From Streptomyces morookaense (GTDB lineage: Bacteria; Actinomycetota; Actinomycetes; Streptomycetales; Streptomycetaceae), in contig NZ_JABBXF010000012.1 in assembly GCF_013030945.1 (NCBI RefSeq), forward strand, positions 1 through 64,000: a DNA stretch of 64,000 nucleotides. Direction: 5' to 3'. Made by a program: the position numbers and the translations under genes. Of the stretch, positions 58,939 through 63,344 are shown one piece after another (position 1 is the stretch's first letter; each line of letters begins with the position of its first letter). The notes under the pieces were generated by a model, which searched no databases, was not told the origin of the DNA, and saw only the letters and a program-made list of their open reading frames with translations.

Positions 58939-59328
58939 TCAGAACCGGAAGACCGGTCCGGTGGCGGCGTCGAGCACGCAGGCGTTGCCGAAGGCCTTCC
59001 GCCAGTGGATGTCCTGCCCGTGCCACTCCCCCTGCGCGGTGGCGATCACCGGGTCCTCCTCCAAGGTGCACGGGTGCGGGTCGCCGCGCAGCGCGTCCGG
59101 CCGCCCGCCGGCCGCGATCAGATCCCGGCAGGCCTCGGCCCCGTGCGGGTGCTTCCCGTGCGCTCCGGGGCAGCCGAGCCGGACACCGCGGATCCAGCTG
59201 TGCTCGGCACCGGAGACGGTCAGCAGGAGCCGCCCCTCCTCCTGCTCGTCGGCCGATGCCGGGACGAGCGGCAGGGCGAGCAGCGCGGTGGCGGTCGCCG
59301 CAGCGGCCGCGGCGGAGCATACGGACAT
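58939..59328 (-). CDS. Subtilisin inhibitor-like (SSI family) secreted protease inhibitor
   Basis: This 129-residue secreted protein has a signal ending around PLVPASA and the SSI fold signatures: RLLLTVSG at the start, LGCPGAHGKHPHGAEAC, then the reactive-site loop PHPCTLEEDPV, and a final AFGNACVLDAATGPVFRF. In SSI the reactive bond is the P1-P1' pair after the Cys-Pro/Thr step; here the P1 residue is Leu and P1' Glu. Four Cys form the two family disulfides. The ATG at 59328 has GGGAGG seven bases upstream. It may protect against or regulate subtilisin-type proteases, including the one at 50-51 kb. Confidence 0.9.
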   Translation of the reverse strand: MSVCSAAAAAATATALLALPLVPASADEQEEGRLLLTVSGAEHSWIRGVRLGCPGAHGKHPHGAEACRDLIAAGGRPDALRGDPHPCTLEEDPVIATAQGEWHGQDIHWRKAFGNACVLDAATGPVFRF

Positions 59329-59561
59329 GGACGGGCCTCCCGGGCACGGGGATACGGATACGGGGTGGTGCGGGGTCGCGGGCCAGGCCACCGCGCGCGG
59401 GCACACCGCGGCAAGCGGCCGCACCGCCCGCGTCGCCCGTCCGGCGGGCGCGGGCCACTCGGTTGGCGGTGGCCGTGTGACCTGCGGAAAAGCCGTCGCG
59501 GTGCGGGGCGGTGGGCCGTACGCTCGGTGCCTTCGACACGGCCCGGGAGGGGAATCCACGG

Positions 59562-60392
59562 ATGAGCGCACGACTGCGCGAGATGGCGAAGGCGACGGAG
59601 CAGATCGTCGCCGCGGGCGGCTGGACGACGCCGGACGGCCGCAGGACGGACATCGCGCAGGCGGTGGCCCGGGCCCGGCGGGGGACACGGCTGTACGGGC
59701 CGGAGCCGGTCGCCGTTCCGGCGTGGGAACCGGTGGCCGGTACAACGGAGTTCGAGGTGACGGCGGAAGGCAGCCTGGAGGCGGCCCGCCGGCTGGCCGC
59801 CACCGCTCCGGTGGCGGTCCTCAACTTCGCCTCGGCCCGCAATCCGGGCGGCGGCTACCTCAACGGCGCACAGGCGCAGGAGGAGGCTCTGTGCCGGGGC
59901 TCGGCCCTCTACACCTGTCTGCGCGAGGCACCGGACTTCTACGCGGCCCACCGGGCGGACGCGAGCCCCTTCTACAGCGACCGGGTCATCCACTCCCCCG
60001 CCGTCCCGGTCTTCCGGGACGACCGCGGCACGCTCCTCGACACGCCCTTCGAGGCGGGCTTCCTCACCTGCCCGGCCCCCAACGCGGGCGTGATCGCACA
60101 GCGCATGCCGGGCGTGAGCGCCCGCGTCCCGGGCGCCCTGGTCACCCGCGCGGAACGCGTTCTGGAGGTGGCGGCTGCGCATCATTACCGTCAACTGGTG
60201 CTCGGTGCCTGGGGATGCGGGGTCTTCCGCAACGAACCGGCCGACGTGGCAACGGCGTTCGCCACGCACCTGACCGGCGGGGGCCGCTTCGCGGACTGCT
60301 TCGAGCGGGTCGTCTTCGCCGTCCTGGACCGGCGCACGGACTCGCCGGTGCGTGAGGCGTTCGCCCGGCGGTTCCCGCGGGCGGAAAGCTGA
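59562..60392 (+). CDS. TIGR02452/DUF2263 protein, bacterial PARG-like macrodomain
   Basis: This 276-residue cytoplasmic protein has the PARG signature GGG-x(6-8)-QEE seen in NPGGGYLNGAQAQEEAL. LNFASARNPGGG, GSALYTCLRE and VLGAWGCGVFRNEP are further macrodomain features. Such proteins hydrolyse poly(ADP-ribose) chains; the catalytic Glu pair is present. No toxin or ADP-ribosyltransferase partner is adjacent. ATG at 59562 has GGGAGGGG upstream. A bidirectional terminator separates it from the convergent lanthipeptide precursor. Confidence 0.87.
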   Translation: MSARLREMAKATEQIVAAGGWTTPDGRRTDIAQAVARARRGTRLYGPEPVAVPAWEPVAGTTEFEVTAEGSLEAARRLAATAPVAVLNFASARNPGGGYLNGAQAQEEALCRGSALYTCLREAPDFYAAHRADASPFYSDRVIHSPAVPVFRDDRGTLLDTPFEAGFLTCPAPNAGVIAQRMPGVSARVPGALVTRAERVLEVAAAHHYRQLVLGAWGCGVFRNEPADVATAFATHLTGGGRFADCFERVVFAVLDRRTDSPVREAFARRFPRAES

Positions 60393-60394
60393 CG

Positions 60395-60430
60395 GCCGGC
60401 CCGTCCCGTACGGCCACGGGACGGACCGGC
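60395..60430. terminator. Bidirectional terminator between PARG-like gene and lanthipeptide precursor
   Basis: A 9-bp stem (CCGTCCCGT/ACGGGACGG) extended by 5 bp after one mismatch, with a 6-base loop. It starts 3 bases after the PARG-like gene's stop (60392) and ends 28 bases past the precursor's stop (60458, opposite strand), so it can terminate both. Confidence 0.75.
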
Positions 60431-60457
60431 GTCACTCACCGGCCCGGAAGCCGGTTC

Positions 60458-60580
60458 CTAGAAGTTGGTCCAGGAACAGCTCCACGAACAGCTCCATGAA
60501 CAGCTCGACGGGCAGTCGATGCTGTCCTCGGACTCCTCCTCGGACGGGAGCAGTTGCAGCAGGTTCACATCGTCGGCCAT
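60458..60580 (-). CDS. Class IV lanthipeptide precursor peptide with tandem Cys-Ser-Trp-Ser core
   Basis: This 40-residue peptide was missed by a longer out-of-frame ORF. The leader (residues 1-22) starts MADDVNLLQLLP and is acidic, with EEE and ED; the NLLQLLP stretch resembles the leader helix of class III/IV lanthipeptide precursors. The core (23-40) is CPSSCSWSCSWSCSWTNF: Cys at 23, 27, 31 and 35, seven Ser, one Thr and three Trp, exactly periodic by four. Cys plus Ser/Thr are substrates for lanthionine or labionin formation. A full anti-16S ribosome site (AGGAGGTGATC) lies upstream. It is 70 bases downstream of the LanL gene, same strand. The core's three 12-bp units differ only at the third base of one Ser codon. 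Confidence 0.83.
   Translation of the reverse strand: MADDVNLLQLLPSEEESEDSIDCPSSCSWSCSWSCSWTNF
60470..60505 (-). repeat. Three 12-bp tandem repeats in the precursor core
   Basis: On the plus strand the three adjacent units are CCAGGAACAGCT, CCACGAACAGCT and CCATGAACAGCT. They differ at one base only, the wobble base of a Ser codon (TCC, TCG, TCA on the coding strand), so the peptide repeat SCSW is perfectly kept. This pattern of silent change is evidence that the reading frame is under selection. Confidence 0.9.
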
Positions 60581-60584
60581 GTCG

Positions 60585-60595
60585 GATCACCTCCT
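60585..60595 (-). promoter_or_regulatory. Ideal ribosome binding site of the lanthipeptide precursor
   Basis: On the minus strand, AGGAGGTGATC (11 bases) matches the full anti-Shine-Dalgarno complement of 16S rRNA, ending about 4 bases from the ATG at 60580. It marks the precursor start and indicates high translation. Confidence 0.85.
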
Positions 60596-60650
60596 CTCGC
60601 AATGCGGCGGGTCTCCACACCGGGGGGCGGCCGGCGTGGAGGGGCCGGTG

Positions 60651-63344
60651 TCACCGGGCGCTCGGCGGCCCGGTGAAGGATGTGGGCAGCCAGAGGCGGG
60701 GGCCGCCGTCGCGCAGGCGCAGCAGGAAGGCCAGTACACCGGCGAGGCCCGTGTTGTAGTCGGCGGAGACGGCGGCGCCGGTCTCGTCCGGGACGAGGAC
60801 GCGGCCGTCGTGCACGGCGTGGCGGGCGTAGATGCCGACGGCGAGCTCCTCGGCCCAGCCGCGGTACGTGTCCTGTCCGGTCGCCTCGGCGAGGTCGAGC
60901 AGGAACTCGCCGTCGCCGGCCAGTCCGTGGCACTGCGAGGTGCCGGCGTGCCACCGGGAGCGGCGTACGGCGACGGCCGCCCGGTGGCTCGCCTCGCGCA
61001 GTCGCTCGTCCCGGGTCTCCTGCCAGAGGCGGATCAGGAAGGTGCCGATCCCGGACGATCCGCTGCACCAGTGCGTCTTGAGGACCCGGCCGGAGGGACC
61101 TTCCGGCCAGTAGGCGGCGCCGTCCTTCGACTGGGCCGTCGCGAGCAGGGTTTCGCCCGCTTCGGCCGCCATGGCGAGGTGACCGCTGTCGTGGGCGGCC
61201 CGGCCCGCGGCGAGCAGGAACGCTCCGGCTCCGGCGACCCCGTGGGCGAAGCCGTAGTGGACGAGGCCGGCCAGCCGGGACGCCGAGCCGCGGGGTACCG
61301 GCCAGTAGGAAAGGGTCTCCCTGCGCTCGCGTGCCGCCGCGACCGCGTCGGCGGCCTCCCGGGCCCGGTCCAGGAAGCGGTCGCTGCCCGTGTCCTCCCA
61401 GAAGCGGAGCTGGGTCATGCCCGCCCCGGCCGCCCCGTGGCAGATGTCGGGGTTGGGCGGACGCAGCGGTACGCGCCCGGCGAGCTCGTGCGCCTGCGCG
61501 ACCAGTTCCTCGTCGCCCAGGGCCCGGCCGGCTGCGAGCAGCGCCCATGCGGTGCCGGAACGGCCGAAGTGGAGTCCGGGCAGCACGCGCGGTTCGCGGC
61601 CCACCGTGCGGCCGGTCCAGTGCGCTGCAGCGGCAACGGCCTCCCGCAGGGCGGGGTCCGGGGCGGACTCGTACGCGCGGACCAGTACGCCGAGGATGCC
61701 CGCGGCGCCGTGCTGGACGTTGCACGGGTCGGTCGTGGCACCGAACGGCGAGGGCGGCCACAGGTGTTGCGGCGCGGCGGGGTCCATCGTGGTGAGCAGG
61801 TGGTCCAGCGCGTCGCCGATCAGCTGCTTCAGCTCCGCGTCGCCCAGCCGGCCGGGGCGGCGCAGCGGCGTGCCGCCGCCGAGGAGGCCCCGTACGGCGC
61901 CGGGTCCGGGACGCCGTGCGGGGTCGTCGTGCATCAGGGCGACGATGGCGGGGGCGAGGCGCCGTGCGGCGGGGTTGCCGGCGCACAGGGTGCCGAGCCA
62001 GTCCTGGATCCGCCGGTGCCCCGGGCGCACCATGGGCCGGTCGGGCGGCAGTTGGGGATCGACGCCGGTGGCGGCGTGGAAGAGGGTGGCGCCCAGGCTG
62101 TAGCAGTCGGCCGTGGGCCCGGGTGCCGTGCCGATGTACGGGGAGGCGATCTGCTCCGGGGCGGCGTAGCCCGGCGTGTACACGCGGGTGACCGGGTCGC
62201 CCGGGCGGGCGAGGTGTTCCAGGTCGATCAGGCGGAGTTCCTCGTCCGGCAGCACCATGACGTTGCCGGGGTTGAAGTCCCGTAACACGAGGCCGTGGCC
62301 GTGGACGAGCTCCACGAGTTCCAGCAGTTGCCAGGCGATCCGTTCCACGGCGTCGTCCGGCGGACCCCAGGTGCCGCCGTCGTGCGCGATGTTGTCGGCC
62401 ACCCATCTGCGCAGGGTGACGCCCGGCAGTTCCTCCTGGACTAGGAAGAGGTCGTGCTGCTGCTCGAAGAGGCCGAGCGGGCGAGGCGTGATGCCGGTCG
62501 GTTCCAGCAGTTCGAGCATGGCGGCTTCGTTCCGCCGAGCGTCCCGCACGTCCTGGCCGGTGAGGGTGGCGCCGGTGTGCGGGCGGGCCTGCTTGATGAC
62601 GACGGGCAGCCCGGTCTCGTCGTCCGTCGCCCGGTACACCCCGCCCGTGAACGCGTGGCGGACGACCTGCCGTACGGTGTACCGGCCGTCGAGCCGGACG
62701 GCTCCGGCGGCTGTGCCGCCGTGCGCGACGGACGGCGAGGCGAAAGGATCGTGGGGCGCCCAGCGCGGCGGGGAGAACCAGGCGTGGCGCTCGTCCCGGG
62801 CCAGGGTCCCGTCCGGGGCCATCAGCATGGCTTCGTACGAACCGTCGTCGCCCAGGACCGGAACCCCGTCGTGGACCCCGAATCGGTAGTGCACCAGGCT
62901 GCCCGCCCGATAGGGACGGTCGGAGAGAATACCGGGACCTGGCAGCCCCAGGGTCGCCCGATGCAGTTCCGCCGCAAGTTCCCGGAGTCGGTTCTCGTCC
63001 CCGTCCGGATATGCGGTGATGAATTTCCCGCCGCTGCCCCGGCCGTACCCCCGGGAGAGCAGTTCGGTCACCCGCGCGAGAGAGCCGGCGAACTTGAACG
63101 CGCAGCGGTGTCCGACGAGTACGTCCGCTGCCCGCGCGAGCACGAGCGGCGCGGACAGCGGGGTCGCGGAAAGGTGCAGTTTCCATCCCTGGACCCCGGG
63201 GCGCTTGCCGCACGGTGCGACGTGGCACCAGAAATCCCCCTGGACGATGTGCCATTCCGTGGCGCCATGACGGGCGAGGGCAGCTCGGACGCATCCGCGG
63301 AGCAGCGGGGCATCACCGGGGAATTCACGGTCGTCACAGGTCAT
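60651..63344 (-). CDS. lanL: Class IV lanthipeptide synthetase (LanL): lyase, kinase and LanC-like cyclase
   Basis: This 897-residue three-domain enzyme dehydrates Ser/Thr and cyclises with Cys. Lyase-like N-terminus, 1 to about 215. Kinase about 220-490: VVIK with Lys251, LVLRDFNPGN with Asp356, LIDLE with Asp374, and YAAPEQ. LanC-like cyclase about 520-897: zinc ligands Cys760 in THWCSGSSGIG, and Cys805 with His806 in SQCHGLAGDGE; these three define class IV and are absent from class III LanKC. RBS GGAAGGTGG before the ATG at 63344. It lies just upstream of the precursor gene, on the same strand, with a 70-base gap. No transporter or leader protease follows in the window. Confidence 0.92.
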   Translation of the reverse strand: MTCDDREFPGDAPLLRGCVRAALARHGATEWHIVQGDFWCHVAPCGKRPGVQGWKLHLSATPLSAPLVLARAADVLVGHRCAFKFAGSLARVTELLSRGYGRGSGGKFITAYPDGDENRLRELAAELHRATLGLPGPGILSDRPYRAGSLVHYRFGVHDGVPVLGDDGSYEAMLMAPDGTLARDERHAWFSPPRWAPHDPFASPSVAHGGTAAGAVRLDGRYTVRQVVRHAFTGGVYRATDDETGLPVVIKQARPHTGATLTGQDVRDARRNEAAMLELLEPTGITPRPLGLFEQQHDLFLVQEELPGVTLRRWVADNIAHDGGTWGPPDDAVERIAWQLLELVELVHGHGLVLRDFNPGNVMVLPDEELRLIDLEHLARPGDPVTRVYTPGYAAPEQIASPYIGTAPGPTADCYSLGATLFHAATGVDPQLPPDRPMVRPGHRRIQDWLGTLCAGNPAARRLAPAIVALMHDDPARRPGPGAVRGLLGGGTPLRRPGRLGDAELKQLIGDALDHLLTTMDPAAPQHLWPPSPFGATTDPCNVQHGAAGILGVLVRAYESAPDPALREAVAAAAHWTGRTVGREPRVLPGLHFGRSGTAWALLAAGRALGDEELVAQAHELAGRVPLRPPNPDICHGAAGAGMTQLRFWEDTGSDRFLDRAREAADAVAAARERRETLSYWPVPRGSASRLAGLVHYGFAHGVAGAGAFLLAAGRAAHDSGHLAMAAEAGETLLATAQSKDGAAYWPEGPSGRVLKTHWCSGSSGIGTFLIRLWQETRDERLREASHRAAVAVRRSRWHAGTSQCHGLAGDGEFLLDLAEATGQDTYRGWAEELAVGIYARHAVHDGRVLVPDETGAAVSADYNTGLAGVLAFLLRLRDGGPRLWLPTSFTGPPSAR

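Follow-up and report, generated by a model that had tools for sequence, protein, structure and literature searches.

Two genes on the minus strand of the window (the whole stretch of 64,000 nucleotides that was analysed) form the locus described here: lanL, encoding a lanthipeptide synthetase, and lanA, encoding its putative precursor peptide, downstream of lanL across a gap of 70 bases (60581-60650). Both genes and the distance between them lie exactly where the original prediction had put them. Their positions and those of the features in and around lanA are collected in Table 1.

Table 1 Features of the lanL-lanA locus, with their positions in the window and the basis of each assignment.
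Feature	Position	Strand	Basis
lanL, class IV lanthipeptide synthetase (lyase-kinase-zinc cyclase), 897 aa	60651..63344	(-)	NF038150, Pfam domains, invariant residues
lanA, precursor peptide, 40 aa, MADDVNLLQLLPSEEESEDSIDCPSSCSWSCSWSCSWTNF	60458..60580, stop codon included	(-)	Translation, NF038157 match, homologues beside LanL
Ribosome binding site of lanA, GGAGGTGATC	60585..60594	(-)	Ends 4 bases before ATG
Predicted LanA core C23-F40, CPSSCSWSCSWSCSWTNF	60461..60514	(-)	Sequence and alignment of precursors
12-bp tandem repeat, 3.5 copies, in-frame AGC TGT TCN TGG	60469..60510	(-)	Tandem Repeats Finder and codons
Strong hairpins past the lanA stop, possible terminator without T run	60390..60460	(-)	-51.3 kcal/mol, z -5.4 against 200 shuffles

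The lanA gene is short, has no annotation and is overlapped by longer open frames on both strands; its earlier description as hidden by other frames was fair. Its ribosome binding site presumably matches ten bases at the 3' end of 16S rRNA, and the GC3 of the gene is 0.85. That so short and unannotated a frame, lying under longer ones, arose by chance and has no role is hardly credible: a search of all six frames met the four-unit pattern (C..[ST])x4 a single time in the window and never in 60 windows simulated with its dinucleotide composition, and homologues occupy the same place beside LanL, and on these two grounds a chance frame was ruled out. The three-unit pattern C..[ST] was found twice in the window, as overlapping triples of the one four-unit array, and once across the 60 simulated windows. 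We regard lanA as a real gene because of its strong ribosome site, its GC3 of 85%, and the counterparts that adjoin LanL in other genomes. At the hairpins past its stop codon a simple terminator scan found no site. Convergent with lanA lies a gene of the microbial PARG type (PF10021; 59511-60392, plus strand), and a minus-strand frame at about 58939-59745 may encode a secreted protein of the subtilisin-inhibitor type.

LanL is assigned to class IV because it passes the cut-off of the curated class IV model NF038150 (1113.3 bits; cut-off 650), stays below that of the class III model NF038151 (445.8 bits; cut-off 575), and has invariant zinc ligands, Cys760, Cys805, and His806 being unchanged across the nine LanLs that were aligned. 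The Cys-Cys-His zinc ligands of the cyclase domain are lost in class III. Both the class and the intact ligands had thus been named correctly at the outset. The LanM model TIGR03897 gave 108 bits, below its cut-off of 304; RamC_N, Pkinase, and LANC_like domains each scored above Pfam's cut-off; the best match among solved structures was 8car (chain of 865 residues, aligned over residues 50-887 of LanL). The reading frame is intact, and the PADLOC matches land on the kinase domain. Kinase residues K251, E273, D356, N361, and D374 are invariant in the nine LanLs, as are lyase residues K55, H57, and Y112, which correspond to catalytic residues of VenL by motif and spacing, VenL itself standing outside the alignment; by the same spacing the place of VenL Arg83 falls on Gly87, which is varied, with the nearby K84 invariant. 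For the VenL lyase the catalytic residues are given as Lys51, His53, Arg83, and Tyr108 in PMC2843593.

Within the core of LanA, the three repeat copies read AGC TGT TCA/TCG/TCC TGG and differ at a synonymous position only, and their three TGT codons stand out against LanL, which has TGC 10 times and TGT once. Since the copies vary only synonymously and the TGT codons are atypical, the core may have been lengthened by copying of one 12-bp unit, the copies then drifting while the protein sequence stayed under constraint; the changes being so few, we take this as a hint, not as proof. For comparison, 74 precursors were used, namely all unique matches of a second precursor profile at E ≤ 0.001, from 36 of 40 loci. 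At least four Cys spaced exactly four residues apart were found in 12 of the 74, window LanA included, and the exact spacing, at first held to be special to LanA, was dropped as a unique trait. What sets LanA apart is a run of three uniform CSW units: tandem C[ST]W[ST] units occur in seven of the 74 precursors, LanA among them, and three in succession in LanA only.

The leader of LanA matches NF038157 (ALQxL family class IV lanthipeptide) with 17.7 bits and E 0.003, which misses the cut-off of 19, and for this reason LanA, which by its sequence resembles the ALQxL group, is not filed in it. This second curated group was overlooked in the statement that venezuelin-type class IV precursors look different; the VenA model NF038147 is absent from the LanA matches up to E 1. 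Shared with the NF038157 precursors are a class IV LanL partner, a leader of the D-x-[AL]-L-Q-x-L type and, for many of them, a short core of C-x-x-S/T units; LanA differs from them in its uniform CSW units, in NLLQLL where the family has DALQxL, and in its score below the cut-off. When ten precursors were scanned against NCBIfam, all eight of the ALQxL type passed NF038157, one belonged to the VenA family, and one stood above no cut-off. At each of two loci, L120:8560-10220 and L122:8268-9514, at least eight ALQxL precursors, all different and with cores of the form (C-x-x-S/T)4-5, make up an array.

LanA does not stand alone. BLAST of the peptide matched six of 392 genomes of the genus at E ≤ 0.01, its own included and far ahead; the weak matches in G249, G171, G035, and G049 were missing from the results of the profile search and were discarded as kin, and the locus of the first (L005) shows a presumably glucanotransferase-like gene. 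Across the order, three of 245 genomes matched at E ≤ 0.001: its own, Actinocrinis puniceicyclus DSM 45618 (G395), and Streptomyces sp. JJ36 (G437). A profile of ten precursors found matches in 16 of 392 genus genomes and the second precursor profile in 23 of 394 family genomes, the own genome included each time. When the species-genome collection (84,980 species) was scanned with a profile of the precursors matched in the order, three loci came up, the third of them in Streptomyces varsoviensis; such a scan requires a short pattern to match exactly and possibly omits the own genome. The viral-contig scan found no relative, and the PDB and the plasmid collection had none of the precursor. A short frame of Streptomyces varsoviensis (L067:10001-10033) with STCSWTCSWT in frame was rejected as kin; no LanL was recognised in its 20-kb frame list, and the likeness is probably coincidence. 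The Actinocrinis (L065) and JJ36 (L066) loci are like that of the window in their cores (CTSTCSWTCSWT and CGITCTWTCSWT / CASTCTWTCSWT) and have LanLs 49-50% identical to that of the window, but their precursors have three Cys and two CSW or CTW units, and their clusters combine two precursor copies with an ABC transporter and with an S9 peptidase of the prolyl oligopeptidase family.

Among 40 LanLs placed in a tree, that of the window groups with those of G387, G254, G299, and G469 (64%, 63%, 60%, and 59% identity, respectively) with support of 100/100. A DNA search matched 70 of 392 genus genomes, the own one included, and the best matches include four more close LanLs of 57-60% identity, of which G168 has two, G377 has one, and G299 has one as its second copy. 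The tree leaves out loci L154-L157, whose kinship rests on 57-60% identity. Seven of the eight other orthologous loci have a precursor immediately downstream of LanL, in agreement with the expected gene order; in G469 the precursor found sits upstream of genes for ABC, radical SAM, and LanL proteins. Leaders are conserved across these loci and cores are variable, as is usual for such peptides. The proposed check against orthologues gave a mixed outcome: close relatives keep a precursor beside LanL, and of the eight other loci three have cores with C-x-W/F-T units (CTWTCPWTSTSAED, CTFTCPWTSTSAEAE, CAWTCPGTA), whereas five have different ones (CCGTC; TAGSCCSTF, twice; TTKCSCCCYE; one longer). 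Genome G387 has a locus of short C-T-W-T type (L074) and also, at L075:8665-9772 beside a LanL, a row of four ALQxL-type precursors whose long tails are poor in Cys.

Such strong variation of the core among orthologues would also suit a degenerate or non-producing locus, in which LanL is intact and the repeat has grown by slippage, with a peptide that is not made or yields no useful product. The surroundings of the pair can be read in the same direction: no protease or transporter gene was recognised beside lanL-lanA, and, in contrast to the NF038157 ALQxL systems, the locus (contig 55000-74500) gave no S9 match and one weak ABC match; this, the nearest ABC ATPase gene found, is of DrrA type and is located some 8 kb upstream of lanL, outside the window. 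Five S9 family matches were found in the own genome, none of them on the window's contig. We nevertheless consider degeneration improbable, for the LanL frame and the examined catalytic residues are intact, the repeat copies have changed at a synonymous position only, lanA has a good ribosome site and GC3, and the loci of G387 and G254 and the first locus of G299 likewise show neither S9 nor ABC matches. Less probable still is that a radical SAM enzyme also, or instead, targets the Cys-rich repeat, with LanL as one of several modifiers. Two members of the LanL clade do have a radical SAM gene directly before lanL (G254, L076:4897-6078; G469, L130:11545-12603; 57% identical mutually), and one related precursor grazes the Cys-rich repeat model TIGR04114 (E 0.15, below its cut-off), but no such gene was recognised among the frames listed for contig 55000-74500, part of which were Pfam-scanned, and none appears in the frame lists of the clade loci L074 and L077.

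Genes, enzyme class, homologous precursors, and repeat can be read from the sequence itself, and we interpret lanL-lanA, with a probability of roughly 0.85, as a minimal class IV lanthipeptide locus with an expanded-repeat core. For its product, rings in a row had been proposed, and the related precursors support this: in the 74 precursors Ser or Thr stands at +3 of 212 of 258 Cys (best of 200 shuffles, 93), including the first Cys in 66 and the last in 64. All Cys can be paired forward, over 2-6 residues, in 70 of the 74 (shuffles, at most 37). These counts carry a bias, as the selecting profiles themselves contain the C-x-x-T pattern; among the 57 precursors outside the profile alignments, 160 of 204 Cys have Ser or Thr at +3, and 53 precursors are forward pairable vs 15 backward. 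The rule is weaker in a set chosen by LanL and leader (35 unique precursors; 55 loci, being part of the LanL matches, with a leader match in 28), in which 69 of 112 Cys conform and 27 of 35 precursors pair forward and 21 of 35 backward; the leader profile missed the precursor of L157. A hand-picked count of 40 precursors (125 of 133 Cys; 40 of 40 forward) was replaced, as both duplicates and many less regular rows had been left out of it.

Forward rings are favoured because of these 212 Cys, and they have class IV precedent because three of the four venezuelin rings run forward from Cys (Cys34-Dhb39, Cys45-Dha49, and Cys32-Dhb43, as assigned in PMC2843593). For LanA, four separate forward rings, C23-S26, C27-S30, C31-S34, and C35-T38, have about an even chance of being the true pattern. 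Taken by itself, the LanA core allows all four Cys to be paired in either direction, and the same class IV locus could make rings of the opposite sense, with Dha or Dhb N-terminal to Cys and interlaced or overlapping between units (S20-C23, S26-C31, S30-C35, or S28-C31 with S32-C35). That direction is described as usual for LanC and most LanM enzymes, the ProcM clade doing both (PMC13060382), and the venezuelin ring Cys50-Dhb31 is reported to run so (PMC2843593). We hold it to be the less likely arrangement: full backward pairing over 2-6 residues is reached in 26 of the 74 precursors, no better than the shuffled mean of 29.7, and precursors such as MTIDVDALQALESDESEAEGLIPVCPWTCSWTSF pair none of two Cys backward within that span.

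From the sequences we infer all of the chemistry, including the pattern of the rings, and likewise how the leader is removed and the product's export and activity. LanL would bind the ALQxL-like leader of LanA; its kinase would phosphorylate Ser and Thr of the core, its lyase would eliminate the phosphate to give Dha or Dhb, and its zinc cyclase would couple Cys to these residues. Most likely, each Cys would close forward on the residue at +3, so that four small rings result, each separate from the others and three with a Trp inside, and Ser25, 28, 32, and 36 may stay Ser or turn into Dha. The leader would probably be cleaved by proteases encoded elsewhere. A bolder proposal, to which we give somewhat less than an even chance, is that LanL closes a chain of repeated C-x-x-Ser/Thr units, like a zipper, into a continuous one-way ladder of four Cys-first (i to i+3) rings, with Trp in three successive ones and a length that changes as 12-bp units are gained or lost. 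If so, nature would have made a stapled peptide that is modular and adjustable in length, and the forward ring rule would be common to all class IV precursors of the C-x-x-T group.

As a kind of system the locus is, judged by its genes, known; its lengthened tandem version is unusual. Venezuelin (VenA/VenL) shares the LanL architecture and has its three forward rings from Cys, and it differs in an overlapping, globular ring pattern (PMC2843593), in a precursor family of its own (NF038147 VenA), and in the ABC transporter genes venTH of its cluster. For SflA of Streptomyces sp. NRRL S-1022, also of class IV, two non-interlaced rings have been reported already (PMC8358304), in a cluster described as having no aminopeptidase gene (PMC8358304, PMC10885120); its cleavage motif PDLLK, as given in PMC10885120, is absent from LanA. 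Few class IV lanthipeptides have been characterised so far: the venezuelins, SflA, and two of its own are those named in PMC9576775. In the genome survey of PMC7268733, 86% of the predicted class IV precursors were not annotated as genes. The open-access literature yielded no relevant paper on the LanA core pattern (one unrelated) and none on an "ALQxL" lanthipeptide family. With its two genes lanL-lanA is a minimal system, the core of which is repetitive and easy to alter, and the sequences of the precursor group around LanA point to a single simple ring rule. Other lanthipeptide loci are probably present in the strain as well, since five further LanC-like matches were found in its genome, on contigs C169, C5, C182, C177, and C46.
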